Positions 11,616 through 58,974 of a stretch of 64,000 bases of DNA are shown in pieces (the first letter of the stretch is position 1; the number at the start of each line of letters is the position of its first letter). A model generated the notes under the pieces. It was not told the origin of the DNA. It ran no database searches and saw nothing but the letters and a program-made list of their open reading frames with translations. Source of the DNA: Bolinopsis microptera. Lineage: Eukaryota > Ctenophora > Tentaculata > Lobata > Bolinopsidae. The stretch covers positions 11,392,303 through 11,456,302 of the forward strand of contig NC_087075.1 in assembly GCF_026151205.1 (NCBI RefSeq). The letters run 5' to 3'. The position numbers and the translations under genes are program-made.

Positions 11616-11947
11616 CTATGCACATGCAGTTTTGTTGTGGATAATCGTATCGTCATGCAGTTTTCCACTTCTGTGAGAAACTATTTCGGAAGTATCAGAG
11701 TAGAGATTGGAAGGGTGAAGAATAATATCATCATTACAATAATTGTAATGATCTGGAGTGGGCGGAACTGGACCGTTGTTTTCTTGTAAATTTGTTGTTT
11801 TCTTGTTGAGTTTGAATTCATTTTCCGTTCCAGCAGAGCCTCCTTTTGATTTCTTTTTTGTTATACAAAATCCAGCTAGCACCAGCAAAATACACGTCAA
11901 CACTGCCACACCTGATCCGATCCAAACTCGAAGGCTGACAGGTTTTG
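11616..11947 (-). CDS. Receptor exon: transmembrane helix and cytoplasmic tail
   Basis: The acceptor AG lies at 11949-11948 and the stop TAG at 11618-11616. The exon enters with two bases and joins the previous exon in phase 1 (ACA, Thr). It codes for a hydrophobic segment, SGVAVLTCILLVLAGFCI, followed by the stop-transfer stretch TKKKSK and a tail of about 80 residues. The tail has a PVPPTP proline motif, two tyrosine clusters (HYNYCND, which contains a YxN motif, and NLYSDTSEI) and no kinase or death domain. Binding of SH3 or SH2 partners is inference. Confidence 0.85.
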
Positions 11948-14900
11948 CTGAAATGGCTATGATTCAATAGTACTAGACATGTATGAATTTGATGGCACTA
12001 TGACTCTATGATTAAACGGGTGCCTAAAATCAACCATATATAATTATAGCTAGAATATAATGAGCCCAATAGAATAATCAACGAAAAGTTGAAAGTGTTT
12101 TATTAAACTATAAAAATCATTCTCACCGATAACCTCAATTCTTCAAAATTTACCAAATTTCATTTTACGATTCCCATATCTATATCGCTGTGATCTATCA
12201 GGAGAGAGAGCCCACACATATTGCCAGGTAGAAGGTGTCAAAATATATCCTTATTGAACTTTATTTGGACAGACATTAATTCAAATTACTTCTGACAAGG
12301 TAGGCGAAGTGCTGTGATCGTTTGTTGCACTCTTGCTGAGAATAGAAGTATTTCATACAAGAAAGAGAAAATGTTAAAATGATACTCACTGTTCATTGTA
12401 ATGGTTGTTGCACTTTCAAGGTTAGTTCCGGCAGCAAGGCCAGTGTAAGTAACAATACACTTATAGACCCTTGCATCGTTGGTAGAGGAGATGGTGATGG
12501 GGAGGGTACTAGACACCGTAGAGCTGTCTTCGGCAACCACATTTGCATCAGCTGTTTCAGTAGCAGCTGACTCTCCTAGCAGCCATGTGAAAGTTGGAGT
12601 AGTAATATCTGCATGGGACTCTGCAACACAAACCAGGTTGATGTTATCTTCAGAGTTGCCTCTAGTTGGGGTGACCAGAGGTGTGGATATGGAGAACACG
12701 GTCAGGGTAGATGATGTTGGACTGAACTCCAGTTCACTCTTTCTACATGTGAAGGTGTCCCCTTTGCTTGCTGCATCAATTGTTATCACATACTCAGCTT
12801 TTGTCTTTCCTCCTTCGAGTTTAGTTGACGATGCAGCAAGATCTTGGGAGCCATTGTGGAATCTAAGTTCAAGTTGACTTGGGGAGGTAACTTGGCAGCT
12901 AAGTGTGACCATCACTCCCGCTCCGTAGGTGCTGTAAAGGGCAGCAGGGCTTACCATCTCTATCAGGTTCAAGTTCACATTAGAGAAGACACCTTCAGGT
13001 ACTGTCAATGTTCCTTCGGCAAATGCAAAGGTACATTTGTATTCGCCACTAGAGTCTGAACTTGCTAGGTAAAGGATGTGAATATAGTCATTGCTTTCTT
13101 CATAACTGTACTGTGAGGTTCCTATTACGCCATCTGGACCTCTCCATGTAATGCCAGACTGAGCATCGCTGGCATCAAGGGTGCAACTCAACTTTAATCC
13201 TGCGTTAGTATAACTATAGATATTGGCATCTGTTGGGGTCTTGGTGACAATTCTTACAACTAGTGTTCCTTCAGAATGGTAATTCTCAGTATCAGATACA
13301 ACAAACATGCACCGATAACTTCCAGCATTTTCTATTGTGATACCGGCCGTTTTTATTGTTAGTGTTGTCTTGAAGAGGCCGTTGGTGATGGAAGACTCGG
13401 TTTCTACGTCATATGGGTCGGTGTAAGCAATTGGTGTACTGTCAGTATCAACGTAATTCTTGTACCTGAAGAGAGAGAATCGTTTTAGTCATAACATTGA
13501 ATGACATTATATGATGATTATGCTGATTGGAACCAATAAGTAAACCATCCTGCTTGAATTATTGGACATCTCTTTTAAGAACATGCAACACAGTGATTGG
13601 AAAATCAAATATTTGCATACCAAGCAGTAGAGGTAGGTACCGCACCATCAGAACCCACACCCAGGGAGCACTCCATCGTGACGGCAGCCCCGATTGAGTA
13701 GTATTTGGTATTCAGTCTGGCGTTCAGGCCTGAAAATAACAGCTTGAGAAACTAAATTTAAACATTTAAATTATTGATCAAAATGTGAGTGCGCTACACA
13801 GGGTATTAAGCCGTGTAATGTTTGTTAATTAGGTATATAAAGACGTTTTTGAGTTTCTGAGTCAAGAAGAATGATATCCTTCCAATGTATTAAAAAAATC
13901 AACCAAGTTATCTTATCAAACCAACCTCTGAACTTTAGGACTGTTTTTGCAGTAAGTTCCGCTTTAGGGTTGGTGAATGAGTACTTGCAAACAATTACTT
14001 TGCTGGCATCAGAGTAGGTTCGTCCCAATATGGTGAGCTCATCAGACCTGAATTATCAGGTTTATAACCTTCAACAAAGCTGAATTAGTATTACTGTACT
14101 CGTCAACGGTACCTACACGAACAATCTAACAGATCGCTGCTAAGGAAGTAAGGATAAAATGTTGTACCTTTCATTTGTTCCGGTATTCAAAGTTCCTGGA
14201 GTAATGGTTATTCCATCATCAGAGTCCAAAACAATTGAACCAGCTACAGTCCAGGATACAGATGGGTCGTCTGTTCCCTTGTAGTTACAAGTTATGGTGT
14301 GCGAGGCCTCGCTGGAGACTTCCTCTGCGGCCAAAGCGTCGACAGCTACAATGTAAGCGTGAATTTTAGGAAAAAAGTTAATAAAAGTAAACATGCAGTT
14401 AAGGATTTTGATTGAATTTACTTGTTTTAGCTCGCGACCTAAAACACTGAGAATGAGACTTCTTCAAACAATGATGATATAAATTAACATTATTTATATC
14501 AACTTACATCGAACCCTGAAGTTAGTGGTGGATTTGATGTCATCACCAGTTCCTGAGAAGGAGTAAGCACACTTGAGCGCTCCTCCACTGGATTTTATGA
14601 TCAGGTTCAATGTTAAAACAGATTCCCACTTCTTGCTTCCAGTAACGTAACTTCCCTGAAGTATGTGAAATCATAATAGCATGATTAAAAATGTATTATA
14701 TGCAACCATGTAACTTCTCAGTTCTCTCGCTATCCACGGAAATAAAAGGGATAAGACATGATTAAACTTATACCGTAAAAGACCTTAACAGAAAGTTTAA
14801 TACAGAGTAGAACTTATTTCTAACCTCAGTAATAGTATATCCAGCAGGCAGAGCTAAATCGTTATAAGTCCACGTGACACCACCCACACCACTGTCTCCA

Positions 14901-17900
14901 TGATATTCACAAGTGAATGTTTGGGATCCCCCGAGAGCAGTGACAGCTGTATACTCGTCCAGCGGCTTGGATAGCTCTGAGATGGTTTTAACATTTAATT
15001 TCGTGTATTTTGGTTGTCTGGATAGAGTGGAGAGGGGGTACAATATTTATTGGTTAAAGATACTTCGCCACTTTGTCGTATGTAATCCATATTCCATAAT
15101 ATGCTCTCTTGTGTTATTCCGATATTATATACCATGTCAATGTATTGATTGTATTGAATGATTTGTTTATTGCTTAAACAAGAAGGCTTACCTCGGATGT
15201 AGAGAGTTGCAGTTGTGCTTTCTCTAGTAAGGGTCGCATCTCGATAGCGTACACAGCCTCGCATTGTAAACACCCGCATTGTCCATGGTGGCACTGAAAA
15301 GTTGTACATTCAAATTCAAATTTCAGAGAAACGCCCTGATGATAACACAGGCCATGGTGTTCCTAATTCCTTACTATTTATTATGATGTTGTCACATGCA
15401 CATGATATAAGCTACTATACTGTGGTGAATTAGAAGATTTTTGTTCTTCTGAGTCAATAGGAGAATTTAAGACATCCACGATGCACCAGACAAATTACAC
15501 AATTTATTACTTATAACTCTGTTCCATGAAATTAACTTAAATGTGACGGTTAAACTCACGATGAGAATGTCAAAGTGGATGTTCCAGGGTTAGCGTTATC
15601 AAAGTTGATGAGGGACACGTCCATAGCAGTGCTGGTTCCATCCACAACCTTGTACCAGCTGAGACTGGTAGTGGCACTATCTGGGTTCTTAACCGTACAG
15701 GACAGTTCAGCGTCCTCCCCAACAAGATGGGAAACATCAGAAGGGTTTATAGTTATACCAATATCTGTGGGAAAGGAAACTGTTACGGATCAATCCATAT
15801 AACCAACTGAACGCATATAACGAGTATTTACTGAATCAGAAGAGGCTAACAGAGCGATTGGAGATCAAGTTGGTGGGAGAACCAATGAAATCTTCAAAGA
15901 GGATAAGTTGACATTTTCAAAAATAATTAGTATCATCTTGCATTATATAGTTTTAACATAGCAGAAGAAGCAAAATCCCAACCATAAACAGCAATAGTAG
16001 CAGTGGCACTCTCAACAGTGGTTCCTCCAAAGTCGGCTGTGCACTTATACACTCCACTATCGGCCTCTGCTGCAGTGGCGATTGTAAGGGTGCTCGTCGT
16101 TTTCGGGGCAGTGTAGGTATCTATATCACCAGACACGAGAGATGTATCTTTTGTCCTGATTGGATTTAAAGTAAGCTTTTGTGTAATATTGACTTTGGTT
16201 GAAAACAAATTGGGACGAGCTAAAGAACTGATTGTCACAGGCGAGGAGCATGAAATAAACGAATCGGGTAAAAGGCATTATATTATAGTTATTGTGGATA
16301 AAACTCTATACATAATCACAGAGAATGCCTGGAATATCTTACCATGTGATGGTAGCTTGTACGTCTCCAACAACCAAGCAACTGATTTCAAGTTGAGATC
16401 CTAGATTAACATTGGTATCAGCTGGGTCAGTTTCAAATCCTCTCACTGTAACATCAATTGTTCCAGTCAGGATTACTGCATTAGAACCGTCACTGTGGGA
16501 GTATGTGGCAGTGCAGATATAAGCTCCTGTATCAGCTAGTGCCAGGCTGGAGAAGGATAGAACGCTGGTGTAGGAAGAGTCGGAGGTGGAGGTCGTAACT
16601 CCGGACGTTATCTGAAGGGTGAGGAGGGGGTAAGGGGGGTGAGGATAATAAGTGTGTAGCCCATTTTGGTCTGTACTCTGTACAAGGGACATTGGGGTAA
16701 CATGTTCATTTTTAGCAATTAGTCTCTTCCTGTTGATCATCAATCCCTATTGCATAGCTTTTTAAACCATTAATTAAAGTAAAAATAAAAAGTGTACTAA
16801 CGTCGGCGCCTCCGTCTAATTTCCAGGTTACTGCTTGTGTTACGAAAGTATCATCCAGATCCATCGCACAGGACAGTTGAGCACTTGCTGCCGCCAACAG
16901 GATTTGGGCGGAGTCAGGTGTCACGACGAGACCTAGAAAAGTGTAAATTTAGATAACTATAACATTCAGGGATATCACCATCACGTGGTAACATGTATTT
17001 ACTGAAAATATCGTGCATCATAGACGAATCAAGTGTTTCAAGCAATTACGGCAATTATCGAATGACATTGCAGATAAAATAATATTTTCTACGGTAAAAT
17101 AGTTACCTAATATAGCCAGGGCTAGTTCTGCAGATTGGTCATCTAAAATGGGGTCTGCGTAATCCACTCGGCAAGAGTAGTCTGTATCAGCAGAATCAAA
17201 GTTGAGAATGCTCAGATCAGATGTCGACTGTTTTGTTTCGCCATCAGCTTCAAAGCTGGTGGCCAAGGTCGTGGCAATAGTATAAGCAGAGTCATCACTC
17301 ACCAAAGCAGTTCCAGAATCACCTTTAAACCATAGGATACCATCTCCAACATCGTGTGCTAGAACAGCACATGAGACAACACCGCTGTCACCGGACTTGA
17401 TCGAGGGTGTGGGGGCAGAAATTGTCACTTCTGAAATATGCATAATCCATTTAACACCACTATTACTGTAAAATACGAATGGTATTCAAGCTCGTTAAGT
17501 TATCAATATCAGATTCACAGAGATAAACTACTCACGTCTACAAGAAGTAGACCACTATGTGACTATGACTATAAAAGATGAACGGTATTCAAGTTCGTAA
17601 ATTAATCAACATTAGATTTTTTTAATTTTATTTCAAAATTCAAATAAACTTTACATCAATGTATTACAGTTATATTTAGAAAAGACCACAATATCTCCTG
17701 TGAAGCAAAAACATGGAAAAAGAGAGCTAGAAAAATATTCATGAGACTCAACACTACCAGACTCAGCTGGAGTGAGAAACATTATGTAAACATCATAGTA
17801 AAATTTATTTCGGCTGAACTAAAACACGGTGGTAAAACCATAATTACATTGGTGCCGACCCTACATAAATCATTAATCAATAATCAAGAGAACAAATTAA

Positions 17901-20900
17901 AATGTATACGATACCTTCTTGCTACTACTCCACAGACTTACATGACATAACAACAGAAAAACATAATTATATATTATAATATACCAATCTATCTAACCAC
18001 TCCATGGACCTTAACGTACCGCGTGACGCTCTTGTTTCATAGAAGAAAAAACGGCGCGTTCTACTGCAGGTGCGAGTATAACATTTATAAAGTAAAATAT
18101 ATAATATTCCATGCTGGGCCGTCTAATCACAGAGTTGTAACTTGAACATTTTTTATTTGATATTATGTTATCTTACATGTTATCTGACTACAAAAACCAT
18201 GTATATAGTACTACTCACGTCTACAAGAAGCAGGGAAGTTGTTGGTTGAACTGGAGCAGACTATGGTTTGTGTACCGGCGTTACCGTAGGTGTAATCAGT
18301 ATTACAAGTCATGTCTACATTACCTCCCTCCGCTACACGAGATCGGGATCTGTACTGGCTACGAATTTCATCGTGGGCACGGTACAGACAGCTGAAAGCA
18401 GGAGTTGAGTAAAGCAAATGAATAACTTAAGTTAAAGGACCAGTTAACTGAAAAAAAAGTTATCCTCATATTTTGACAGATTGTGACAAATAGCAAACTG
18501 AGCAACGAGTCGAAATTCCTAAATCTCTAACTGCTCTCTAACGCGTGTAATTAGCGTTTGTATTATTTTGGCGATGACGTCATAAAGTCCCTTGCGCGCA
18601 CAGAGCAGCTCGTGAGACTGTATTTTACAGGTAAAAATGGACATAATACAATGTTTCTCCCCCAAATAACTCGAAAAGTAAGTGTTTTAGGGTACATGTT
18701 GCTTCATAAGTTGTACATAAACATGGCCATTCTGCACAATTTGCACTCATTCAAAAATCTGTTTGGCCTTCATAGCCCAATTTACGAGATACCCATATTT
18801 TTGCATGATTTCTGGAACCGGAAATCAGTTTTTCGCCAATAACTGAAAAAGTAAGCACTTTAAGGCATCTGTTTCTTCGTAAGTCATATATTAATATGCT
18901 AATTGCGGTTCTTTTGCACCCTGTCTAAAGACTCTATCACGATCCTATCGAAAATGGGCTCAGCACCACGCCCAAAATGGTTTTTGGCGAATTTCTCGAA
19001 AAGTAAGGATTTTAGGCCATGTGTTGCTCAATAACTCCTATATAAACTTGCATATGCGGCTTCGTTTAAGCCTATTTTGAAGTCTCCACGACCTTCAGAA
19101 GCAAAGGGTCGGTTACGTTATTGGGTCAATATCGGCGTGGTCAATATGTCTCCAACCGAAAATCCTTTATTCATACTTTTGGGAAGGTCTTTGCAAAATT
19201 TCGTGAGTATACGAAAATTTGCAGGTTCAATTCCATAAATGTCCATAAATGACTGGACTACACAAGTTTAGAGTTAACTTTAGAGAAACTCATAAATCAT
19301 TATTATCTAAAATTAAGCTGTCAGTGTCCATGATCAACCTATGGCTACAATGTTTTACGTGAAAATTGAAATGTAAAAATCAGGAGTAATATAAAAAGTG
19401 TATTTTTAGATTAAAGTGCTATCTCATAGTTTAAGAATTGTATAGATTAACGTTTGTCGTTTAGCCATCTAAGAATCGATCGTGCCGTAATATATATGGC
19501 CAACGAATAATAGGGTCTTGGAAATTCTATAGTTGTTGAGTGGGTCGATTGACTGAACACGTTTGCACTAATTGGTATTTAATTTTATGATCATACAAGT
19601 AGGACGATAACTAGGTAAGTCAAATTCAAAACACTCCGCACACTGTACACTCCAATCAGTATTTAGTAGATCGGGTATTTTTCGGTTCCCACGGCACCGT
19701 TCTGATAGGAGCTACTTCTACTAATGGTCCCATGGGAACGGCCGTAAAATAGCCAGACTTCTTGTCTCCTGTACTGTCTGGCACGTGTGGATTAAAGTAA
19801 GAGATTTCGCTATGCTAAAAATATAATTGCTCTCGGAACTATGTCTTTTACAGCGAACCATTCGACTGCTCGCATTCTTCCGAACAACTGTAATATTATA
19901 TTACAGAGTTACACTCTGATCAGCTATATTTAATATATAGCACATTATTTTGTGTATTAGTTTCATGTGCTGGGGAAAAATAATCGGTACAGTCTCCCTT
20001 CGTTTGTAATGAAGCAATGAAAACAATCCAAAATTATCACATATGACATAACTTGTAATAGCAGAAACTTTCTAACCGTACATTCACCCGCCACTGTTCA
20101 AGAACTTATGTCACTGTTTAAAATCCTGACGTGAGCACTGTACATCCAATCAGCTATTCATATAGTTAGGGTGATAGCCAAAACTATAAGGATTTTGTAG
20201 AACTAGGGAAATAGTCATAACTCTAAAATTTGAGTGAGTTACACGTGTTTTATTGACGATGATAAACATTTGTGCATTGTATTACGCTATGCAAGAGCGC
20301 ACTGAGGGACTTTATGACGTCACGCGGCCACAGCTTATTATTGCAATAACACGCGTTACACGTACGCTAGAGAGTTAGTTCTTTCGGCGATACGATTCTT
20401 TACCAGTTTGTCACAGCTGATTTAAATCTTAGCCAAATTGGAGACTACAAATTTTTCAGTTAACTGGTCCTTTAAGTTAGTGGTTAGGGAACAATTCTTA
20501 GTAAAAACGTGGTGCTTAGGCCGAAAATAATTTCAATTAAATGTATCATTATATTATAATAATCATGTTCCAGACGATTGAACTACAGTGATATATGAAT
20601 TGTAGTCACTCCGATACTAAATCATAAATTTCCTTATTGTATTATTTATTATTATTATTTTTTCGAGTAGAATGTAAAAAAACGTGAATGAAGATAATAC
20701 ATATGAAAAACTTAAAACTGTTAACATACCGATACAATCATCAACACCATCTGAGCCAATGTCCAAAGTACCTAATCCTGCACCACAGGCTGTACATTCT
20801 ATTGCTTCATCAGCACTGTACGTGTCAAGAGCGCACGAAGCACAAACTTGAGCATTTTCATCTGCCGTGTTAGCGTATGTTCCTGCTGTGCACGTGGTAC

Positions 20901-23900
20901 AGGTTTCGTCAGAGTTCTGTATCTGGCCACTTCCACAGTTCGACTGTACAACGTCTTCAGTATCAACATTTTCAAAATCTGCCGGGTCAAAGTTACGCTT
21001 CTTACGGCTGTGTGTTATCTGAAAAGCAATAGAGTATCGTCAGATGTGTATCTATCATACCAGTATGAGATTGAAACATAAAGAAATCATATTAGTTCTA
21101 GATCTAGATAGGCAGTAGGCACCTATATAAAATTTGTAAAATTTGGTGGCAACAATTTGTATAATGTATCATGTTACATTTTATATTTAATAAAACAAAT
21201 ATATAATCACAACATACCGAGGAGCTGTTAGGGATCAGTAAATGAAGACCGAGAGGATATGATCTAAGATAATCAGCCGCTGTCTCCAGGATCTGTCTTT
21301 GCTCTGTTAAATTCTTCATTGCTCTCGATGCTACAGTGACTGATAAAACAGTACCATTCTCAGAAGCGTTGCATGAAATGTTGCTGACCATGCAGTTTTC
21401 AGTCTGAACACAAATGAGGCTTTCTCTAATGAAGGAGAGGACATTTTTCTTGGGATCAGGTAAAGAGCATCCGGTGAAGTCTGGCCCGTACCTCAATCTC
21501 AGCTTGATCGGCTTCGGGGAAACATCTGAAAGTTTTAGATTCAGTCCTGATGTTACCAAAAATATGTGCGCTATCTTAATAAAACAAATATTTTAATAAA
21601 ACAAATATTTATTTTTACGGCACAATCAAACAATATCAATAATAAATAAATCAGGGGAGGTTTGAAGAGGTTTCAAGTGCCGAAGGCCACTGCTTATCTT
21701 TAGGATTTGAGAGTGACCTGTGCTTGAAACCCCCTCAACCATCCACTACGTCAATATACTAATTACAGTATACAAATATAGAAAAATATAATAATCTTAA
21801 ATTACTTATTGGTTTAGTTTGGTGACAAAGGAGAGCCCAGTTGAGTTTTAGTTTAGCTTTAGGTTTTGAATCACAGTTTAAAAGGTTAGCCATGTTTCAT
21901 GGCAGAGAGAGATATCATGTGTGCATAGCCGTACCGGATGTAGAGTTTGAGATATAATATAGATTAGTTACCATGTATTAGGGTCATCTCGATTTTGGAG
22001 GGATAGCAAGTGCTTTTTAAGGTTAGATTTAATAACACCTGACGAAGCTGATAAGTCTGAATTCTTGGAAGAACCCGGGATTATCAACCCATCTACATTA
22101 GCATCACATATTTCGAATACATAGGGGCTGAGGTCATTCCAAATTTTCGTAGAGGTGTACAAAAAGTTCTGTTGGGAGATATCTAACCTCAGTAATGGGA
22201 CAATCAGACGAAGTTTTTCATTTCTAGGACAGAACTTGAAAAGATCTTTAATCGACTGGGGGACATCAAATTTAAGAATTTTGAATAATTCCATAAATGT
22301 ATGGTACATGTGCAGATTCTCCAGGTTCATAATTTTCTGCTCGGTGAATAGCGGTTTAGTGTGTTCAAGACAGTAGTTCTTGCTAGCCATATGTTCGTTA
22401 TAAGTTCTTGAACGTGCACAGGTTAAATAGTATTCTTTATGATCAAAATTGGGAATGTTACCAAATAGCAGTCTTATACATCGTTTTTGAATTGCAAAGA
22501 TTTTATTCAGCTTATGTTTAGGGATCCCACCCCAGCAACTTATACAATAGCTAAGATGTGACATAAAAAGAACATTGTATAGTTTCAAATATTCAGATTT
22601 GGGAATGAATTTGCAAATTCTCTTAATCGATACAATACTGGAGTTCAGCTTTAAAGATAAATGATTAAGATGTGGTTCCCGGCTTAGCTGTTCGTCTATT
22701 ATCACCCCAAGAAACTTTGTACATTGAACTTTTTCTAGCTTTTTGCCATCTATTAAAATCGTTAGATTCCTGTTAAAGGGCCGTGTTCTGGCACAGGTCT
22801 GTGTTGCTCTTGACAAACCTGGCTGAAAATGCATATAACAACTTTTCCCTGCATTTATATGTAACTTGTTAGACTCCATATAGTTACTGACTTGTTTCAT
22901 TACATGATTAGCTTTTTCAAAAGCTTCCTGTGCTGAACTACCTATCACAAAAATATTTGTATCATCAGCAAACAGGACGAATTCAGCCAAGCTTGAGGAG
23001 CTCACAATATCATTTATATAAATCAGAAATAGTAGAGGTCATAACACTGACCCCTGGGGTACACCATACTCAACTGAACACTTGTCCGACTTTTCAGTTT
23101 GAAAATAAGTTACTTGGCTACGGTTTGTTAGATAGCTAGCAAGAGTTTTTAGTGCAATACCTCTTACTCCATAGTGTTCAAGTTTATGCAGGAGTTTATC
23201 GTGCTCAATTGTGTCAAATGCTTTACTTAGATCAATAAATATTCCAATTACATGATTTTTCTGTTCAATCTCATTAAATATTTTATTGACAGAATAGTTT
23301 ACGGCATGAGATGTTGAGTGTTGTTTTCTAAAACCAAATTGTCGATCATAAATCACGTTCATAGCACTGAGGTAATTATATAACCTATTATAGATTATTT
23401 TTTCAAGTATTTTTCCAAATATCGGTAACGTAGAAACAGGTCGATAGTTATCAAGGCATCGTGAGTCTCCTTTTTTATAAATTGGTGTAATAGAGCCCGT
23501 TTTAAGCTTGTTTGGAAAGACCCCATTGTCCAAGAACCAATTAAAGAATCTAGAGATATGACCAGACAGATAATTTACACTCTTTTTTAAGACTTTAACA
23601 GAGATATCACTTGCCTTCCCATTTTCAAGGCTACCAATGATTTTACTTATCTCTTCCTCGTCACAGGGGCTGAGAAAAAAAGAGTTCACTATTCTTTCTC
23701 TGCCCTTGAGGTATTGTTTAAACTTCGTCTTAATAAAATTGCCATCAGTTACCGTACGAGATGGTACAGAAGATTGAACTTTTGAATTAAGATTACGAGC
23801 AATAGACGAGAAGTAGATGTTAAATCCGTTAGCAATCTCACGGCGTTCAGTTACAATTCGACCATCAATTAAGAATGATGCTTTTATATCTTTTTTAGAT

Positions 23901-24843
23901 TTACCCCTGAGTTCGTTAATCAATTCCCAGGTTTTTTTAATATTTCCTTTAGCAAGTTCAAATTTTTTTCCATAGTGGGCTTTTTTCGCAGATTTTATAG
24001 CTTTGTTTAGGATAGAACGATACTCCTTATACTTAAGATATAAAGTTTCCTCACCTAATGGGTTGATTTTGGTACACGAAGCCTTCCATCGCTTGTAGTG
24101 AAAGCCTTTAGTAAACACAGATTTAATTAACGCAGAAGTGATCCATGGATTCATCAATCTATTGCGAATCTTGATTCTGATAACAGCTTACACAGCTTGA
24201 TAGGCAAAGTTATTTCACTGCGATCATTGATTTGCAATGTCAAATTGGTCATGTTATTTAAAACTTACAAGCACATCTAATGTGAGGAGGAGATGCTCTA
24301 TCACGATGATAATGATTCCAGTACCACTCTCTGCTTCTTGTATTGTAGGAGCACCTAGGTATCACGTAATTTTTTAGTAATCATCATTATTATCAATTTG
24401 TTTTACCACCTCCTAATATTAAGTTTATCTAAATCTATCGACCAAAAACACCAGTATTTCTAGATTGACTAGAGCTATAATAAGATAACGTGAATAGTTA
24501 ATAGGTAATTAGCTTATGCAGTGAGTTGAAATAACCTAGCAACTAGTATAAGAGTTAAAAAAATACATAATATTTAAATCAACCTGCATCGGATCCACAA
24601 AAATAATTGAATTTGGTAATATAAATAACACAAATAATTCTACCTCATTTCCCTAAAGCGTTTATCAAGAAGAAAGAAGCCCCTGTCCTCATGACAGTGT
24701 GCCCTGACAACCACCTCACCATCATCCTGCCAGACAGACAAGTTTCCTGCTGTCACGTGGTGTCCAAGTGTGGGGTGTGAAGCTATGGGATCTGGGAGTT
24801 CCACACAACTTCCGTAGTCGTCCAGTTGTGCGGCAGCCTGGCC
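11616..24843 (-). CDS. CCP / ephrin-receptor-like / 10xIg single-pass receptor-like protein (18 exons)
   Basis: Exons from 5' to 3' on the minus strand: 24843-24644, 24354-24269, 21525-21218, 21018-20730, 18391-18219, 17430-17107, 16932-16802, 16611-16343, 16155-15983, 15764-15560, 15293-15192, 14976-14825, 14655-14508, 14345-14168, 14047-13926, 13729-13621, 13465-12390 and 11947-11616. They total about 4.4 kb (roughly 1,460 residues), and the protein is extended N-terminally by the cysteine-rich array at 25.4-31.4 kb. Domain order: CCP; a domain of unknown type; an RKKR site; two cysteine-rich GCC2/GCC3 (ephrin-receptor-like) repeats; CCP; ten Ig-like domains with the usual Cys...Trp...(D/S)xGxYxC pattern; TM helix; about 80-residue cytosolic tail. 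The N-terminal half recalls SVEP1-type proteins, while ten Ig domains and a TM do not. Two 1-nt lesions break the frame here (exons at 18219 and 15192). The first is absent from the second copy. Signal peptide and start codon were not found. A cell-surface recognition or adhesion role is inferred from architecture only. Confidence 0.85.
12390..13465 (-). CDS. Receptor exon: second half of Ig7 plus Ig8, Ig9 and Ig10
   Basis: This unusually large exon (1,076 bp, 358 codons plus split ends) holds more than three Ig-like domains without introns. Landmarks are NAGSYRCMF (end of Ig7), LSCTLDASD...SSGEYKCTF (Ig8), LSCQVTS...GDTFTCRK (Ig9) and LVCVAES...FTWLLG...DARVYKCIV (Ig10). The donor GT lies at 12389-12388 and the acceptor AG at 13467-13466. 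Ig9 lacks an obvious core tryptophan. Its fusion into one exon, unlike the split upstream domains, suggests intron loss or a separate origin. Confidence 0.85.
13621..13729 (-). CDS. Receptor exon: first half of Ig7
   Basis: It codes for the B-strand cysteine (VTMECSLG) and reaches the core tryptophan. The Trp codon is split TG|G across the intron to the next exon. The exon starts in phase 1 after the previous domain, and donor and acceptor are canonical. Confidence 0.85.
13926..14047 (-). CDS. Receptor exon: second half of Ig6
   Basis: It codes for SDELTILGRTYSDASKVIVC, the F-strand half of an Ig domain, and ends AKTVLKFRG at the domain border with a phase-1 donor. Confidence 0.8.
14168..14345 (-). 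CDS. Receptor exon: first half of Ig6
   Basis: It contains the Cys and Trp of an Ig domain (HTITCNYKG...SVSWTV). It starts in phase 1 and joins the next exon in phase 2 (AG|G, Arg). Confidence 0.82.
14508..14655 (-). CDS. Receptor exon: second half of Ig5
   Basis: It codes for GSYVTGSKKWESVLTLNLII and then GALKCAYSF, the F-strand cysteine region. It enters in phase 0 and leaves in phase 1 (T|CT, Ser). Confidence 0.8.
14825..14976 (-). CDS. Receptor exon: first half of Ig5
   Basis: It codes for QTFTCEYHGDSGVGGVTWTY, giving the Ig B-strand Cys and core Trp. It enters in phase 1 (G|AG, Glu) and leaves in phase 0. Confidence 0.85.
15192..15293 (-). pseudogene. Receptor exon: second half of Ig4, with a 1-nt frame break
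   Basis: The exon starts in the frame set by its upstream partner and reads SATMDNAGVY, a clear Ig F-strand start. The frame set by the downstream exon instead reads DATLTRESTTATLYIRE for the G-strand. The 102-nt length gives one base too many (or two too few) to link them, and the upstream frame meets TAG before the donor. The break lies between about 15275 and 15240. Either a base-calling error or a real lesion would explain it. This exon is not present in the second copy, so it cannot be checked within the window. Confidence 0.7.
15560..15764 (-). CDS. Receptor exon: first half of Ig4
   Basis: It codes for HLVGEDAELSCTV...TSLSWYKVVDG, with the B-strand Cys and Trp, and ends in the E-strand STLTFSS. 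It enters in phase 1 (G|AT, Asp) and leaves in phase 2. Confidence 0.87.
15983..16155 (-). CDS. Receptor exon: second half of Ig3
   Basis: It begins with the G that completes the split Trp codon. It reads TKDTSLVSGDIDTYTAP, then AADSGVYKC-like text (AAEADSGVYKCTADFGG), and ends at the domain border in phase 1. An alternative acceptor eight bases further in would break the phase, which fixes this start. Confidence 0.87.
16343..16611 (-). CDS. Receptor exon: end of Ig2 and start of Ig3
   Basis: This exon spans a domain border without an intron. ADTGAYICTATYSHSDG ends Ig2, and LGSQLEISCLVVGDVQATIT starts Ig3. The Ig3 Trp codon is split TG|G at the donor, exactly as in Ig7. Confidence 0.87.
16802..16932 (-). 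CDS. Receptor exon: first part of Ig2
   Basis: It codes for AAASAQLSCAMDLDD...AVTWKLDGGAD. It enters in phase 1 (G|GT, Gly) and leaves in phase 0 just after the core Trp strand. Confidence 0.85.
17107..17430 (-). CDS. Receptor exon: Ig1, a complete one-exon domain
   Basis: A full Ig-like domain lies in one exon flanked by phase-1 introns on both sides (a classic 1-1 module). It reads GVVSCAVLAHDVGDGILWFKG and ends DSADTDYSCRVDY...LALAIL. The 5' end of this exon (from 17343) is the left edge of the segment duplicated at 58887. Confidence 0.9.
17431..18218. other. Intron with a decayed exon-like fragment
   Basis: GAA(T/C)GGTATTCAAG(C/T)TCGT-type sequence occurs twice, about 101 bp apart (17478 and 17579). 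TACTCACGTCTACAAGAAG at 17531 repeats, over 22 bp with one mismatch, the 3' end and donor of the next exon at 18213-18234. No open frame accompanies it, so it looks like a dead partial duplicate of the CCP exon end. Confidence 0.5.
18219..18391 (-). pseudogene. Receptor exon: second CCP (sushi) domain, 1-nt deletion in this copy
   Basis: Three of the four CCP cysteines and the loop sequence are visible at the end (GNVDMTCNTDYTYGNAGT...TIVC...FPASC). The first part is out of frame because one T present at 59889 in the second copy is missing near 18343. The second copy reads AVCTVPTMKFVASTDPESRV into the same domain without interruption. Length here is 173 nt, where 174 are needed for phase. Confidence 0.85.
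18436..20471. mobile_element. 2,036-bp TTAA-flanked inverted-repeat transposon (non-autonomous, piggyBac-like target)
   Basis: Terminal inverted repeats of about 20 bp start AGGACCAGTTAACTG and are flanked by TTAA on both sides (18432-18435 and 20472-20475). The second copy of this intron has a single TTAA at 59978-59981 and nothing else, which is a perfect empty site. Degenerate subterminal inverted homology runs on for about 180 bp; GACGTCATAAAGTCCCT occurs near both ends. No transposase frame exists; the longest frame is about 94 codons without similarity I recognise. TTAA duplication is typical of piggyBac-type transposases, which would have to act in trans. Confidence 0.9.
18650..19110. 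repeat. Three degenerate ~165-bp tandem repeats inside the TTAA element
   Basis: Each unit has a (T/A)CTCGAAAAGTAAG-like start (18669, 18841 and 18996), a GTTGCTTCATAAG-like block about 35 bp on, and a GCAT/GCAC run near the middle. The copies differ considerably and encode nothing visible. Confidence 0.6.
20730..21018 (-). CDS. Receptor exon: dibasic site and ephrin-receptor-like cysteine-rich repeats
   Basis: It begins ITHSRKKRNF, where RKKR fits the furin-type consensus. It continues with SNCGSGQIQNSDETCTTCTAGTY..., CASCALDTYS and CTACGAGLGTLDIGSDGVDDC. Two GCC2/GCC3 (ephrin-receptor-like) repeats of about 45 residues with C-x2-C-x2-GTY spacing are seen. The donor is phase 1 into the CCP exon. 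Cleavage at RKKR would give a two-chain protein, which is inference. Confidence 0.88.
21218..21525 (-). CDS. Receptor exon: domain of unknown type between CCP1 and the RKKR site
   Basis: About 102 residues run from VSPKPIKLRLRYG to LHLLIPNSSS. The exon has four cysteines (CSLPDPKK, ICVQTENCMV, ISCNASENG) and alternating strands and a helix. Its position between a CCP and ephrin-receptor-like repeats, just before a dibasic site, is similar to SVEP1-type proteins, but I do not recognise the fold from sequence. N-glycosylation sequons (NIS, NAS, NGT, NLT) support an extracellular location. Confidence 0.8.
21560..24180 (-). mobile_element. 5'-truncated LINE (Jockey/CR1-type RT), copy 1
   Basis: Inserted in the intron between the exons at 21218 and 24269. 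The RT region is present, but the APE endonuclease that normally precedes it is missing, so the insertion is 5' truncated near 24,180. The 3' region below 21968 contains a hairpin (GAGGTTTCAAG at 21667-21677 against CTTGAAACCCC at 21723-21733) and ends at two 17-bp tandem repeats (21576-21592, 21593-21609). Short tandem 3' repeats are typical of CR1/L2-like lineages. The same insertion lies in the second copy, so it predates the split of the two copies. Confidence 0.8.
21968..24157 (-). pseudogene. LINE reverse transcriptase, copy 1, broken by a nonsense codon
   Basis: RT motifs in order are NYRPVSTLPIFGKILEKII, QFGFRKQHSTSHA, IDLSKAFDTIEHDKLL, YGVPQGSVL and FVLFADDTNIF, with a C-terminal region ending QNRDDPNTW. 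A TGA at 23041-23039 interrupts motif B (SVL|GPLLF). The second copy has GGA there. Frames 24157-23039 and 23005-21968 are otherwise collinear. The N-terminal NPWITSALIKSV is the usual segment just after an endonuclease domain. Confidence 0.88.
24269..24354 (-). CDS. Receptor exon: second half of CCP1
   Basis: This 86-nt exon reads CSYNTRSREWYWN...PPHIRC and supplies the last cysteines and Trp of the first CCP domain. It enters in phase 2 (AG|G, Arg) and leaves in phase 1 (T|AT, Tyr) with donor GTAAGT. It is too short to stand out as an ORF and is supported by phase and by the second copy (63776-63861). Confidence 0.78.
24644..24843 (-). CDS. Receptor exon: first half of CCP1
   Basis: It codes for GQAAAQLDDYGSCVELPDPIA, then VTAGNLSVWQDDGEVVVRAHC and FFLLDKRFREM. 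The C-x-x-LPDP start and 'G..V...C' core are typical of CCP/sushi modules. It enters in phase 0 and leaves in phase 2. Confidence 0.82.
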
Positions 24844-25431
24844 CTAAAATTTAAATATTTCAATACTGGTGAGACGACTAGAGCTGAGGCAACCTGGTAC
24901 AGAAATTAAAATGTTTGAGGCAGATCATTAGAAATAGCGGGTAATGGCGGGTTTTTGTTAGTGTAAGCTAAACTTGTTCCACCTCCCCGCAATTAATATT
25001 GTCTCTTTAACTGTGACCGTGGGTTCATGTTCAGCATTTAACTGCAAGGCGGCACTCAAAAGGCGGCACTCAAAAGGCGGCACTCAAACACAAAATAGAC
25101 GTTACGTACCATGAACCATATTATCAAGAATTTCCAATTCGCCATCAATATTAACTATTTAATGTGACTGGCAGCCAAAGAGAAAACACAAATAAATTGT
25201 AAACCTTAGGAAGTAAAAAAGAAAATAAAAACTCTCTCCTGGTGCTTTTTTCCTTCAATCACTATCAAGTGACTACATCTCAATACTCATTCACTTCTGC
25301 CTGGAGCTCTGGCTACTCACATTAATGTTTCAAGTTAGTTACATGCTTTTTTCCCTTTGGGTTATTCCCTTCGACTCACTAATCCTTGTGGCCAAATTTC
25401 ACAAGAGTTTGGTTCCAAAAAAAAATTTTAC
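24844..25431. other. Intron between the cysteine-rich array and CCP1
   Basis: No coding frame is visible. It carries three exact 15-bp tandem copies of a GGCGGCACTCAAAA(A) unit at 25046-25090. A possible donor (GTAAAA, 25431-25426) bounds the array on its right. Confidence 0.5.
25046..25090. repeat. Three 15-bp tandem repeats
   Basis: GGCGGCACTCAAAA occurs three times head to tail in the intron. No function is apparent. Confidence 0.7.
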
Positions 25432-27470
25432 CCTTCTGAGCAAGAACAGTGGTCCAAACTTGGAGCAGGATGTTGATCTATTGGGCAACTATGGACATGA
25501 ATTCCTTGCTCACTCTTGTATGTTCCGTAGCACAGGACTTTACAAGATCCGTGATGAAGATCATCCCAACTCCATATCTTACCAGGAGGACAAGCACATT
25601 CCCTTCCTTCACTCAATGACTGATATCCTAATGGACAAGGAGAGCACCAGAGTGAACCTATCTGACTTGAAGATCCTCTAGCACAGTCGAGACAAATGGT
25701 ACCGTTCCAATATTTACCTTCAGAGCAAATGCATTTTTCGGAGCCGGCTTCTGAGGATGTTCCTACAGGGCACATGGAGCAAGTGGTCATGTTTTGGTTT
25801 TTGAAGGTGCCAGGTATGCAGGAACAACTGTCAGATCCAACATGTGAGTTGAGAATGGTGAGCAAGGGGCACAATCAGACATTTGGGAGTCTTTGTAAGT
25901 GTTCTCTTGGCATATATTAACAAGATCCGCTGTCTTTATCTTTCCAGTTCCATTCAGAACCCGAAGGACAGCTGCATGCTGTTCCGTTATTCAATGCTTC
26001 TGAGCCAGTTGGACATTCTTGATATTGGAGGGATCCATCTGAGCTAACTAATCCTTGAGGGCATCTTTCACACGCTGTTAAGTTCCAAAATTTACCTTCT
26101 GAGCAAGAACTGTGGTCCAAAACTTGGAGCTGATGTTGATCTATTGGGCAAAATTAAGACATGTAAATCCCATTTGCTCATTTTGTTATGTTCCGTTGCA
26201 CAGGACTTTACAAGATCCGTGATGAAGATAATCCAACTCCATATATACCAGGGAGGGACAAGCACATTCCCTTCTTTCACTCAATGACTGATCTAATGGA
26301 CAAGGAGAGCACCAGAGTGAACCAACTTGCTTGAAGATCCTCTGGCACAGTCGAGACAAATGGTACCGTTCCAATATTTACCTTTCAGTGCAATGGCATT
26401 TATTTTTCGGAGGCCAGGCTTTCTGAGGATGTTATCGACCAGGGAACATGGAGCAGTGGTTATGGGGGGGGGTTTTTTTTTTTTTTTTGGGTTTATATTT
26501 TGAAGGGTGCCAGGTATGCCAGGAACAAACTGGGCAGATCCAAAATGTGTAGTGAGAAGAGAGCAAGGGTACAAGCAGACATTTGGGAGTCTTTGTAGGC
26601 ATTCTGAGGGCATAAACTACAAGATCCGCTGTCTTTATCTTTCCAGTTCCATTCAGAACCCGAAGGACAGCTGCATGCTGTTCCGTTATCCAATGCTTCT
26701 GAGCCAGTTGGACTTTCTTGACATTGGAGGGTTCCTTCTGAGCTCACTAATCCTTGGGGGCATCTTTCACACGCTGGTTAAGTTCCAAAATTCACCTTCT
26801 GAGCAAGAACAGTGGTCCAAACTTGAGAGCAGATGTTGCATCTATTGGGCAATACTAAGACATGAATCCATTTGCTCACTCTTGTTATGTTCCAGTAACA
26901 CAGACATTTACAAGAACTCCGTGCTTGAAGATCCTCCCAACTCCATATCTTACCGGTGGGGACAAGCACAATTCCCTTCCTTCAACTCAATGACTGATAT
27001 CCTAATGGACAAGGAGAGCACCAGAGTGAACCTATCTGACTTGAAGATCCTCTAGCACAGTCGAGACACAAATGGTACCGTTCAATATTTACCTTCAGAG
27101 CAGATGCATTTTTCGGAGCCGGCTTCTGAGGATGTTCCTACAGGGCACATGGAGCAAGTGGTCATGTGTTTGGTTTTTTGAAGGTGCTGGTAGACAGGAA
27201 CACTGGCAGTTCAATAGGGCGAGGTTTGAGATAATGGTGAGCAAGGGGCACAATCAGACATTTGGGAGTCTTTGTAGGTATTCTGAGAGCATAAATTACA
27301 AGATCCGCTGTTTTCATCTTTCCAGTTCCATTCAGAACCCGAAGGACAGCTGCATGCTGTTCCGTTATTCAATGCTTCTGAGCCAGTTGGACATTCTTGA
27401 CATTGGAGGGATCCTTCGGATGACTTCAACTAATCCTTGAGGGGGCATCTTTTTCAACACCCGCCTGTTA
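25432..27470 (-). CDS. Cysteine-rich (GCC2/GCC3, ephrin-receptor-like) tandem array, readable part
   Basis: Three units of about 690 bp (starting near 26083, 26784 and 27472 on the minus strand) each code for about 230 residues without introns. Within a unit the order is CSEGKFWNLTACERCPQG, CQECPTGSEALNNGTACSCP, WNWKDKDSGSC, CSMCPVGTSSEAGSEKC, GKYWNGTICLDCARG, CSPCPLGYQSLSEG and HSCPIDQHPAPSLDHCSC, that is four to five ephrin-receptor-like repeats of about 50 residues. Units are very alike, so the array is young or homogenised. Several short indels break the frame. Because corruption grows to the right I take most of them as sequence errors. It forms the N-terminal extracellular part of the receptor. 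Confidence 0.75.
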
Positions 27471-30400
27471 AAGTTCCAAAAATTTTTTTTTTTTTTTTTT
27501 TCTGTTTATCACTTTTCTGGAGGCAAGAGAACCAGTGGTCCAAAATCAAACTCACACCACATATCGAAGCGACAATAAAAGGGGCTGGGATGTTGGCATA
27601 TCTATTTGGGGCAAACTAAGAACAATGAAAATCCCAATGTGCTTCCAATTTGTTTTGTTATGGATTCCCCGTAGACACATGGGGAACTTACCAAGATCCG
27701 TGATGGAAGGGGGGATCATTCCCCCAACTCCCAATTAATCCTTTACCAGGGGGGTGGCAAAAACCAAAGGCAACAAATTCCCTTTCTTTCACCTCAATGG
27801 TGGAACTGATTTATCCCCCTTATGGGAGGGGGATCCAAGGTGAGCCCACCCAGAGTGAACCCAAACTTGGACTTTTGAGTATCACTCCTTGGGGGCAACA
27901 GTCGAGGGGGACAAAAATGGTTTTTTACCACGGTTCCAAATAATTTTTTTACCTTTCAAGTAGCATAAAAATTGGCATTTTTCGGAAATGGCCGGCTTCT
28001 GAGGGATGTTCCTACATGGGCACCCCATGGTGGCCCAAAGTGGGTCAATTGTTGGGGTTTTTTTGGAAGGTTGGCAAGGGTAGACAGGAAAACAAAATCT
28101 GGGGGGCAGATCCCCCAACTATAGGTTGGAAAGTTGAGGGGATTGCGTGCATGGAATAATAACAATGACTTTTCAACATGCATTTCTTTTAGTGTCTTGG
28201 TAGGTTACATTTGGAGGGGGACATAAAATTACAAGATTTTCCGCTGGTTTCTTTATTGTTGTCCCCCCCAAGTTTACTTTGTTTTTTTATCCCATATTTT
28301 TCACCAGGGGGATAAACCCGGAAAAAAAGGGGGGGGGGGGTGGAGGGGTGAAAACAGAAGGGGGGCTTGTGCACCCAAAAATATGGACTTTGTTTTTTTT
28401 TGTCACCAAAATTTTTTGTATTTTTGTTTAAAAAATGTGCTTTCGGGGGTGGGGGGATAAGGGGGGCCTGGGTGTTTTTGGTGGCGCGGGGGGCCAATTT
28501 TTCTTTCGTTGTTGTTTGGGGGGCCCCAATTGTTTGGGGGAGGGGGGGGGGGGGGGAAATATTTTTCCATTTTTTTCTTTGGAATGATGCTGAAAATAAC
28601 TTTTTTAAAAAAAAAATAAATTTTTATTTTTTCCACCTTTTTTTGTGGGGGAGGGGGGGGTTGTGGGGACCCCATTTTATGGGTGCTTTGTTATCACCCG
28701 CAAATATTTTTCGGCCTGAGGTTATTTATAGAAAAAAATATTTTTTTTTTTTTGTTTTTTTTTGTCCCCCAAGGGGTTATAATAGGCTTGGCCCATTTTG
28801 GGGGCAGGGATGCATTTTTTCGGGAGGGGGCCGGGGCTTCTTGATGGTTGTTCCTACCAGGGGGCACCATGGGATGCAAATTTTGGTTTCATGTTTTGGG
28901 TTTGTTGAAAAAGGTGCCTGTTAGGGACAGGGGGGAAACAAATGGCCGGATCCAAAATCAAGTGTTGAGGGTTGTGTGAGTGGTGCGAAGGGGCCCCACA
29001 ATCTGACATTTTGGGGGGGAGTCTTTATTGTAAGTGTTTCTTCTTTGGGGGGGCATTATGTTAAAACAAGATATTCCGGCTGTCCCTTTATTCATTTCCC
29101 AGGTTCCATTTTCGGAAACCGGAATGGGTAAGGATCAGGCTTTTTTGGCATGCTGTTTACCGTTATTTCCAATGCTTACTGCAGCCCAGTTCGGGACATT
29201 CTGTGGACATTGTTGGGAAGGGTTTCCTTCTGAGCTCCACTTTAAATCCTTGTGTGGCCATCATTTTTTCACAACGCTGTTTAGGTTCCAAAAAATATTT
29301 CCTTCTGAAGCAAGAATACCAGGTTGGTCTTCGAAAAACTTGGGAAAGCAGTATGTTGCTAATCTGATTGGGGGGGCAATACGAGGGGGTCATGGAAATC
29401 ATTTTGCTCATTTTTTGGTATTTGTTTCCCAGTAAGGGCACCAGTACTTTACATGATCCGTGATGGATGGTAGGCTCATACCAAATCTCCATATTTTACC
29501 AGGGTGGCCAAGCACATTTCCAATTCTTCCCAAACTTCTAAGGAAATGAATATCCTTTAATGGGGGGACAAGCGAGAGGCACCCAGGAGTGAACCAAAAC
29601 TTGATTTGAAGAAATCTTCTGGCACAGTTCGAGGGTACAAATGGGTTTATTTCCGTTTCCCCTTTTATTTACCTCAGAGCAAAAATTGCCATTTTTCCGG
29701 AGGGGGGGGGTCGGACTTTCTGAGGGGATGTTTCCTTGACCAGGGGGGCCACCTTGGGAAGCTAAAGTGGTTTCCATTGGTTTCTGGGTTTTTTTGAAGG
29801 TGGCCAGGTATGGGGGCAGGGAAACAAATAATAAACTGGGCAGGATCCAAACATGTGATGTTGTGAATGGCGGTGCCCAAGGAAAATCCCACATGGGCAT
29901 ACATTTTTAGTGTTTCTTTTGTAGGTAATTCTGAGGAGGGGGCATTATAATTTACTAGATATTCCGCTTGTTTTTAATTTGTTTCCAGTTTCCAATTCAT
30001 GGAACCCGATGGGATACAGCTGCAAAGGCTGTTCCAGTTATATAAAATTTGTCATCGGGGGGATGAGGCCTTTGTTGGGCATTCATTGGCCCAATTGGGG
30101 AGGGAATTCCAATTCTGAGCTAACGTAATCCTTGGAGGACAAGCTTTTTTCGGCATGGCTGTTTGAATTTCCTGTAGCTTTGGCCATTTAAGGGCCTGAA
30201 TGGACTTTTTTTCGGAGCCGGGATTTCTGAGGGATGGTTTCCTTCCCAGGGCCCACATGGGGGAGCAAATTTGGTCATGGTGTTTGGTTTTTTGAAGTGT
30301 GGCCAGGTAGGGGACAGGAAACAACTGGGGGCAGGATCCAAACAGGTTTGAGGGTTTTGAGGGGAATTAGGTTTGAGGCAAGGGGCAACAAATTCCCGGA

Positions 30401-31450
30401 TCATTTTGGGAGTCTTTTTTGTGTAAGTTGTTTCTTCTTCTTGGCCATATGTATACAAGTTCCGCTTGTTTCTTTATATTCTTTTCCAAGTTCCATTTCC
30501 GATAACCGATGGGACAGCTTGCCTTGCTGGTTTTCCGTTTTGGTTCATTTTAAATTTCGGGGAGCCAGTTGGACATTCTTGGGGACATTTGGGGGGGGGG
30601 GATTTCCATTTGGGAGCGAATACTAACCCTTGGTGGCCGGGGCATGGTCTTTCCCCCACAGGCTTGTTTTAGTTTCCAAAATTTTACCTTCTGGAGCCAA
30701 TGGAAAAGTTGGGTCCCGAACTTGGATGGGCAGATGTGGGCAAAAATCTTTGGGCCATCTAATTAAGGACATGATTGTTCATTTGCTATTTTATTGTATT
30801 GTTCCTGTAAGCCCACAGTGGACTTTAATAAGATCCGTGTTGTATTGCCTCATTTTCACATTTCCTCCATTTCTTAACCAGGAGGGGTGTCAAGGCCAAC
30901 CTTTTCCCTTCCTTTCCCAAATCAATGAAGATATTGTTACCTATATTGGTCAAGGGAGGAGCACCAGAGTTGGAAAACCAACTGGACTTGGAAGGATCCT
31001 CTGGCACAGGTCGAAGGACCAATCATTGGTTGGTACGTTTTCCAATATTTACCTTCAGAGCCAAATGCATTTTTTTTTTCGGAAGGGCCGGCTTCTGAGG
31101 GATTGGTTTCCTACAGGGCACATGGGGAAGCATAGTGGGGGTTTCATGGTTTAGGTTTTTGAAGGTTAGCCAGGTAGGGACAGGGACAATCCAAATGGGC
31201 AAGGTATTCCAAAAACATCTGTGAAGTTTGTGATGGTGAGCAAAGGGGGCACCAAGCAGGCGGACATTTTGGGTGGGGTTTCTTTGTAGGGTTATTCCTG
31301 AGGTGCATATAAGTTTTTTCAAAGGGGATCCGCTAGTTTTGCTCTGTCCATTTCCTGCTAGGTGTTAACAAATTGGGGGGACCCAATCAGCCAAAAAGCT
31401 GTTTTGTTATTTACGGCCCTTGATCCGGGAACGGGACACAGCTCACGGGC
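27471..31450 (-). pseudogene. Corrupted continuation of the cysteine-rich array
   Basis: The array's landmark TTCGGAGCCGGCTTCTGAGG recurs in distorted form at about 27981, 28819, 29695, 30211 and 31080. Added to 25737, 26405 and 27112 in the readable part, this gives eight copies. Spacing rises from about 690 to about 870 bp because of inserted G and T runs. No reliable frame remains. I interpret this as unpolished consensus over a real repeat array, not as natural decay. Confidence 0.65.
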
Positions 31451-54224: not shown

Positions 54225-54715
54225 CCTCTTTTTTCTTTCAGTTCGTTTGTTAAGCCGTTAGTATTTTTAACATACATATTACATTACACTGGATCGGCTT
54301 ACCACAGTGTAGATTTCATCCAGATCTGTGCCGCGCGCTATATAAACCAACGCACGCTCGCGGGCGCTGACGTGGAGGAGTTACTCTGAAAATTACACTG
54401 TTGTAAAGCCACACAGTGTAATGTTAAATATGTGAGATTATAGACTACAGGCATACTTTCAGGCTATCACTGTATCTAGATTGTTTAGTTTTTCGACTGA
54501 CCTCAGGAGTGACATAACTTCCACAGAATGCCAAAGGTGAGGGGTGGGAGACAGCAAAGACAGCTGTCTCTTTGAAAGTCGGTTGGCCTAACGTTTTGTT
54601 GGTACCAGTTTACTTCCTGGCATTTGTTGTGGTGGGTGTAGTAGCACGGTATTGCCCTTTGTGGTCTGCTCGTATTACCAAACGACACGTGGTGGAGTAT
54701 TTAATTTTTGAGACC
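54225..54715. other. Unique AT-moderate DNA, nothing identified
   Basis: This stretch reads like normal genomic sequence, with a GCGCGC-containing patch near 54330-54370. No gene, repeat or RNA is supported. Confidence 0.4.
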
Positions 54716-58555: not shown

Positions 58556-58880
58556 CTCAGTGGAGTGGGGGAAAAATTAGTGAACATCATAGTAAAAATT
58601 TTTTTCGGCTAAAAAAAAAAAAAAAGGGGGGGGGAAAAAACCCTTTTAAAATTTTAAGACCCAACAAAAAAAAATTCATTAAAAATAATAAAAAAAAAAC
58701 AAATTAAAATTTTTCGATTCCCTTCTTCTCTACTCCAAAAGGGGATTACGGGGACATAACAAAAGAAAAAACTTTAATTTTTTATTTTATTTTTTTTAAC
58801 CAATCTATCAAAAAACCACTCCAGGGGGACCTTAACGTACCGCGGGGACGCTTTTTGTTTTCATAAAAAGAAAAAATTTT
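58556..58880. other. Garbled third copy of 17750-18060
   Basis: Words such as CTCAGTGGAGTG, GAACATCATAGTAAA, CCAATCTATC and ACCTTAACGTACCGCG follow the same order as in 17770-18030, with inserted bases. It lies directly before a clean copy that starts again at the equivalent of 17343. The same intron is therefore represented twice in a row, in an order that a genome is unlikely to have. Confidence 0.75.
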
Positions 58881-58886
58881 ACGCCT

Positions 58887-58974
58887 TCTCCAACATCGTG
58901 TGCTAGAACAGCACATGAGACAACACCGCTGTCACCGGACTTGATCGAGGGTGTGGGGGCAGAAATTGTCACTT
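58887..58974 (-). CDS. Second copy: 5' part of the Ig1 exon (cut by the junction)
   Basis: This matches 17343-17430. The acceptor at 58975-58976 and the VTISAPTPSIKSG start are kept. The rest of the exon is absent because the clean copy begins here. Confidence 0.8.

Follow-up and report, generated by a model that had tools for sequence, protein, structure and literature searches.

A candidate adhesion or recognition receptor gene of Bolinopsis microptera with polydom-like and IgCAM-like parts

In this work we describe a gene on the minus strand of a 64-kb stretch of DNA, free of N, from the ctenophore Bolinopsis microptera (contig NC_087075.1, positions 11,392,303 to 11,456,302). This whole stretch is called the window hereafter, and all coordinates refer to it. 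A chain of 18 exons running from 24843 down to 11616 is read as one animal gene for a large membrane protein of type I, in which polydom-like and IgCAM-like parts would form a receptor for adhesion or recognition; we put the probability of this reading at about 0.6. From outside to inside, the protein would carry a cysteine-rich array, a complement control protein (CCP)-like segment, an alpha/beta domain without family assignment, a site of the furin type and an ephrin-receptor-like (TKE) module. These would be followed by a CCP domain, ten immunoglobulin (Ig) domains, a transmembrane (TM) helix and a tail of about 80 residues. Part of the gene is found again at the end of the window; this repeat is referred to as copy 2 and the main copy as copy 1.

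Gene model and the Ig-bearing stem

The exons were, in order on the minus strand, CCP1a (24843-24644), CCP1b (24336-24269), the exon of a domain without family assignment (21525-21218), the TKE exon (21018-20730), CCP2 (18391-18219), Ig1 (17430-17107), Ig2a (16932-16802), Ig2b (16611-16343), Ig3 (16155-15983), Ig4a (15764-15560), Ig4b (15293-15192), Ig5a (14976-14825), Ig5b (14655-14508), Ig6a (14345-14168), Ig6b (14047-13926), Ig7a (13729-13621), Ig7b-10 (13465-12390) and the last exon (11947-11616). AG/GT borders were present at all 17 junctions, and the phases matched at every junction joining intact exons (13/13). The original prediction of 18 exons with agreeing phases holds in copy 1 for 16 exons, which have open frames and fitting phases, and fails for CCP2 and Ig4b, whose frames are disrupted in that copy. 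The four junctions touching these two exons are no test of phase, the phases of Ig4b having been borrowed from the neighbouring exons, and neither broken exon was mended in the model. It must be noted that the splice sites were enumerated around hand-picked open segments and then chosen by eye among alternatives. Therefore, the phase agreement arises partly by construction and is not a blind test. In addition, Pfam Ig matches span the exon junctions within Ig2, Ig3, Ig5, Ig6 and Ig7, which supports the splices there independently of phase (the Ig5 and Ig7 matches lying below the cut-off). Fifteen of the 17 introns measured 120-788 bp, while the two longer than 0.8 kb (2743 and 2338 bp) contained mobile elements, a long interspersed nuclear element (LINE) and a 2-kb element, respectively. 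Short introns, with the long ones explained by mobile elements, favour a single gene that extends compactly over everything between CCP1 and the tail.

The proposal that the C-terminal half is a ten-Ig single-pass receptor was supported. When each Ig segment was searched singly in Pfam (Ig4 by its first exon only), all ten matched an Ig family at E ≤ 0.1, with best values ranging from 7.5e-14 (Ig3) to 0.057 (Ig9, the weakest), and four of them (Ig2, Ig3, Ig6 and Ig10) passed the Pfam cut-off. Exon Ig1 (17107-17430) matched ig at 5.3e-4, below the cut-off. Exons Ig2a and Ig2b (16343-16932) encode Ig2 (Ig_3, 3.7e-7) and the start of Ig3, the remainder of which lies in exon Ig3 (15983-16155; I-set, 7.5e-14). 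Ig4 is formed by Ig4a, with an Ig_3 match of 1.4e-4 below the cut-off, and the frame-disrupted Ig4b (15192-15764), and Ig5 by Ig5a and Ig5b (14508-14976; Ig_3, 0.017, below the cut-off). They are followed by Ig6 in exons Ig6a and Ig6b (13926-14345; ig, 1.2e-5) and by Ig7 to Ig10 in exons Ig7a and Ig7b-10 (12390-13729), for which the best E-values were 1.9e-4, 3.3e-4, 0.057 and 3.8e-7, only Ig10 being above the cut-off. Pairwise identity among nine of the Ig domains (Ig4 left out) was 15-29%, which indicates no recent Ig expansion.

Hydropathy and translation of the last exon (11616-11947) revealed a TM helix, with a mean hydropathy of 2.35 across 21 residues, followed by 80 residues and the stop codon. 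The tail contained a PVPP motif and one YxN motif (YCND), by which it would recruit SH3/SH2 adaptors. The tyrosine-bearing tail that had been predicted stands in this form; pattern scans found no [ILVS]xYxx[ILV], and Yxx[ILV] was likewise absent from the last exon. In a sequence search of the PDB, the best matches of Ig5-Ig10 were adhesion and guidance receptors, namely DCC (E 7.8e-6), LRIG1 (4.3e-4), NCAM2 (0.0086) and NCAM1 (0.011), and the weaker rows included PD-L1 and antibody chains. The protein has the tandem Ig domains, the one TM helix and the short tail of the broad single-pass IgCAM-like kind.

The cysteine-rich head

The exon at 20730-21018 encodes an RKKR motif followed by the TKE module, which was matched by Ephrin_rec_like with an E-value of 9.3e-7 and 29 bits, above the Pfam cut-off of 23.1. 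RKKR occupies residues 197-200 of a spliced segment of 288 aa and fits the furin pattern; cleavage at this site may precede the action of the receptor.

The CCP segments were evaluated with a home-made profile built from 18 CCP domains, with 1000 cysteine-fixed shuffles per segment as control. CCP2 (18219-18391), frameshifted in copy 1, was scored in its open copy-2 reading and reached 15.9 bits, a value equalled by none of the 1000 shuffles (best shuffle, 10.6), while three further segments of the gene scored from -1.2 to 0.3. CCP1 is divided between CCP1a (24644-24843; phase 0 in and 2 out), which holds its first part, and CCP1b (24269-24336; phases 1/1), which holds its end (..PPHIRC), both being placed by splice sites and frame. 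It scored -1.0, which was matched by 403/1000 shuffles, and by eye it has three of the four expected cysteines. The PDB sequence search returned 10 rows for CCP2 (best E 0.09) and one for CCP1, none of whose chains bears the name of a complement or CCP protein, and nothing at E ≤ 5 for the segment from CCP1 to the TKE module. One of the CCP2 rows, 8xs3_C ('Protein OPG190', E 1.1), is shared with the search for CCP domains. The AlphaFold single-sequence model of CCP2 was too poor for use, with a predicted local distance difference test (pLDDT) value of 44.0. Of the two CCP domains originally proposed, then, the second is supported by the profile and is probably a CCP domain, and the first is unproven. 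In addition, the 21 bases that form the 3' end of exon CCP2 and its donor (18210-18230 in copy 1, 59755-59775 in copy 2) are found again at 17527-17547, possibly as a decayed extra CCP exon.

The exon at 21218-21525 contains five N-glycosylation sequons, the RKKR motif lying in the next exon. Its predicted structure has the order strand-helix-strand-strand-helix-strand (beta-alpha-beta-beta-alpha-beta), with a mean pLDDT of 64.6 and a predicted template modelling score (pTM) of 0.54. Foldseek gave no matches for it at E ≤ 0.001, the best being weak ones to ferredoxin-like proteins near E 0.01, and its one Pfam match, Herpes_UL92 (E 0.022), is below the cut-off and was judged implausible. The order of strands and helices is compatible with that of the SEA domain. 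SEA was nevertheless rejected, given that no SEA row was obtained at E ≤ 10 (HMMER filters drop most matches above 0.1) and that no SEA entry was among the best 50 of 1065 Foldseek matches. The domain and structure prediction suggested together with the original prediction recovered Ig and TKE by Pfam, and gave neither Sushi by Pfam nor a confident fold for this exon.

The array consists of seven detectable copies of a coding unit of about 0.7 kb plus a partial one (25368-31355, minus strand). Blastn of a 726-bp unit placed them at 25428-26153 (the query), 26092-26852, 26795-27485, 27588-28093, 29301-30172, 30208-30755 and 30684-31355, with the partial copy at 25368-25488. The query and its two neighbours (85 and 89% identity) are the cleanest units, the other four showing 67-70% identity and many gaps. 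The frames are broken, worst above 27.4 kb. Below 27 kb, homopolymer runs take up no more than 86 bases in any kb, a number that rises to 135 and 336 in the following two 1-kb bins, so that the decay of the array would reflect sequence error and not divergence. Since the frames are lost in noisy sequence, the length, frame and 5' end of the array cannot be read. All Pfam matches of the array frames were below the cut-off (Ephrin_rec_like, best 4.4e-4; TNFR_ELAPOR1, best 8.2e-4), and a fourth frame, 31764-32183, had no Pfam match. The cysteine-rich array of the original prediction is thus confirmed in its repeated units, and its extent and its link to CCP1 are insecure; we consider this N-terminal array to be probably part of the receptor gene.

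Assembly of the window and alternative readings

Several observations weigh against a single receptor gene of this architecture. The model was built from genomic sequence alone, and the 5' end of the gene falls in unreadable sequence. Exon CCP2 is frameshifted in copy 1, and Ig4b (15293-15192) has no open frame compatible with its neighbours. Six of the ten Ig segments lie below the Pfam cut-off in single searches, and Pfam found no Sushi in CCP1 or CCP2 with the limit set as high as E ≤ 10, a level at which most weak matches have been removed by its filters. Cleavage at RKKR is predicted from a match of four residues. No relatives were found in viral contigs (searched with a reverse transcriptase (RT) and the CCP1-TKE segment) or in prokaryote contigs (searched with the LINE RT of copy 2), which is uninformative on rarity in animals. 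Finally, the array is joined to CCP1 by one candidate donor in noisy sequence (last exon base 25380), whose phase 0 was assigned by comparison with other units. This donor fits the phase-0 acceptor at 24843; however, similarity to the repeat unit extends beyond it and another unit has near-identical bases there, so the link is weak.

The weakness of this junction also speaks for two adjacent genes in the same orientation, with the ten-Ig receptor lying downstream of a secreted, cysteine-rich, polydom-like protein that would comprise the array and CCP1 and perhaps reach as far as CCP2. So does the intron separating CCP2 from Ig1, which at 788 bp is the longest of those free of a known element. 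However, the exit of CCP2 in phase 1 fits the entry of Ig1 in phase 2, and the remaining element-free introns are short. We consider two genes unlikely and prefer the single gene.

With its spliced Ig-rich gene, LINE RT and LIM-type exon, the window resembles animal DNA assembled from long reads without polishing. Copy 2 (58884-64000, minus strand) contains part of Ig1, CCP2, the TKE and unassigned-domain exons and the intron LINE, is devoid of the 2-kb element and reaches the window end. Positions 17340-18435 are repeated at 58884-59981 (99.64% identity) and 20472-24493 at 59978-64000 (99.85%). Exon CCP2 is open there at 59937-59764, with phases (2 in, 1 out) that fit its neighbours. The LINE in the 2743-bp intron has RT frames at 21968-24187, which matched RVT_1 at 1.2e-7 in copy 1 and 2.3e-38 in copy 2. 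The 2-kb element, placed at about 18436-20471 and, with wider bounds, at 18428-20479, has inverted ends (28-nt arms, 96% complementary) and a TTAA site, and presumably resembles non-autonomous elements of the piggyBac type. Its presence in copy 1 and absence from copy 2 would be a difference between alleles. Directly before the clean copy 2, positions 58387-58876 are a noisy, 68%-identical rendering of 17618-18051. The same stretch twice in a row, noisy and then clean, favours a misjoin of reads or alleles, and the contig is probably misassembled at the copy-2 junction, with two alleles joined. A true tandem duplication as the origin of this 39.5-kb repeat is disfavoured by the noisy copy beside the clean one, though still conceivable.

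Two further regions of the window are of low quality. The sequence from 54700 to 58860 is very noisy and its homopolymers are inflated; when 55001-59000 is divided into four 1-kb bins, every bin has 438-564 of its 1000 bases in homopolymer runs. Between 33000 and 53000 there is a noisy tandem repeat of about 20 kb, mostly of a 14-18-base unit like CACTGCTAGTAGCA, each kb containing the core GCTAGTA 7-15 times.

Misassembly in one part of the window, where the noisy 58387-58876 adjoins a clean copy starting at the equivalent of 17340, raises the question of whether the architecture is itself partly an assembly artefact, the array and the receptor coming from different places and being misjoined. 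The position of the array in degrading sequence agrees with this. On the other hand, by eye the cleaner units at 25.4-27.4 kb pass without an obvious break into the clean sequence with CCP1a, and the agreement between the two copies extends to 24493, although within the window copy 2 does not reach CCP1a or the array. A misjoin of this kind appears distinctly unlikely. It is quite improbable that the locus is a decaying gene or allele giving no full-length protein, with the frameshifts of CCP2 and Ig4b being real, as the two exons with frame breaks and the two introns carrying mobile elements would suggest, given that CCP2 is open in copy 2, that the other 16 exons are intact in copy 1 and that errors are likely in a visibly unpolished contig.

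Beyond the receptor gene as preferred here, a more elaborate scheme can be drawn, in which a convertase cut at RKKR would split a polydom-like head, with the tandem array in frame, from the ten-Ig stem, and the copy number of the array would vary between alleles of a self/non-self or adhesion receptor. The array units are so alike that their number may vary between alleles. A receptor of this kind did not come up in the literature search, and as a whole we regard this scheme as very improbable.

Other features were found on the plus strand of the window. Open frames of 781 and 921 codons at 5537-7882 and 8264-11029 matched RVT_1 at 0.011 (below the cut-off) and 4.9e-7, respectively. Cysteine-rich frames at 733-2442 look like a LIM-domain gene, and the sole one of them searched in Pfam, 1117-1416, matched LIM at 5.1e-4, below the cut-off. 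A 16-base repeat is present in 15 copies at 1927-2170. NCBIfam gave a single weak and irrelevant row, on a different gene.

Comparison with known receptors

As far as can be judged from sequence, the parts of the receptor are familiar and their combination appears new, no named family that was tested agreeing with it in full and only the broad IgCAM-like kind doing so. The literature search, with subscription journals mostly outside it, listed no described family with this domain order among its matches, which agrees with the earlier view that the architecture has no named family; two near precedents qualify it. The first are the polydom-like proteins of Nematostella, whose common structure is EGF-Sushi-HYR-TKE; in some of them one end carries TSR or Ig-like domains, and polydom is described as secreted (PMC12549020). 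Our protein resembles polydom/SVEP1 in having a TKE module and a probable CCP within a multi-domain extracellular protein, and differs from it in its ten Ig domains, TM helix and tail, instead of secretion with a pentraxin and Sushi tail. In its readable part Pfam found no vWFA, HYR or pentraxin, the N-terminal region, where vWFA would lie, falling in unreadable sequence, and the only EGF match, EGF_Sp38_C (E 0.032), was below the cut-off and overlies the TKE module. Of the SVEP1-type character proposed for the N-terminal half, one TKE module and one probable CCP are supported.

The second precedent is the fester co-receptors (FcoR) of Botryllus, type I proteins of 520-610 aa with the order Ig-sushi-Ig-Ig-TM and a tail carrying ITIM (immunoreceptor tyrosine-based inhibition motif), hemITAM or YxxI/L/V motifs (PMC12065747). 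What they have in common with our protein is a type I membrane topology together with sushi and Ig domains. The assignment to FcoR was rejected, since size, domain order and tail motifs differ: here CCP2 stands before ten Ig domains, the protein also has a TKE module and a cysteine array, and the last exon lacks Yxx[ILV].

With DCC, LRIG1 and NCAM the protein shares tandem Ig domains, as reflected in the PDB matches of Ig5-Ig10. Unlike the IgCAM-type receptors compared, it had no Pfam match to fn3, and receptors of that type are not known to carry a TKE/CCP head. Hydractinia Alr proteins have an Ig-fold ectodomain and a single TM helix, their ectodomains being short and not known to contain CCP or TKE. 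In Eph receptors, the models that cover the cysteine-rich region are Ephrin_rec_like, Sushi and EGF (PMC6485061); an Eph receptor was rejected, there being no Pfam match to an ephrin-binding, fn3 or kinase domain in the readable part. CCP and Ig also occur together in Drosophila Hig, which has five CCP and a single Ig (PMC9083331) and is not known to carry TKE or TM. EGF, Sushi and Ig-like domains are combined in a 'Matrilin-2 like' gene on a list of sponge transcripts (PMC6208332).

From these likenesses we infer a possible role in adhesion or recognition, in which the Ig rod and the cysteine-rich head would reach another cell or the matrix. The locus also illustrates how readily a long-read assembly without polishing can scramble receptor genes that are rich in repeats. 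If confirmed, the protein would represent the polydom theme in a form anchored in the membrane and rich in Ig domains, with matrix-type cysteine-rich modules joined to an IgCAM-type stem, and would bear on how adhesion and allorecognition receptors are assembled by domain shuffling.

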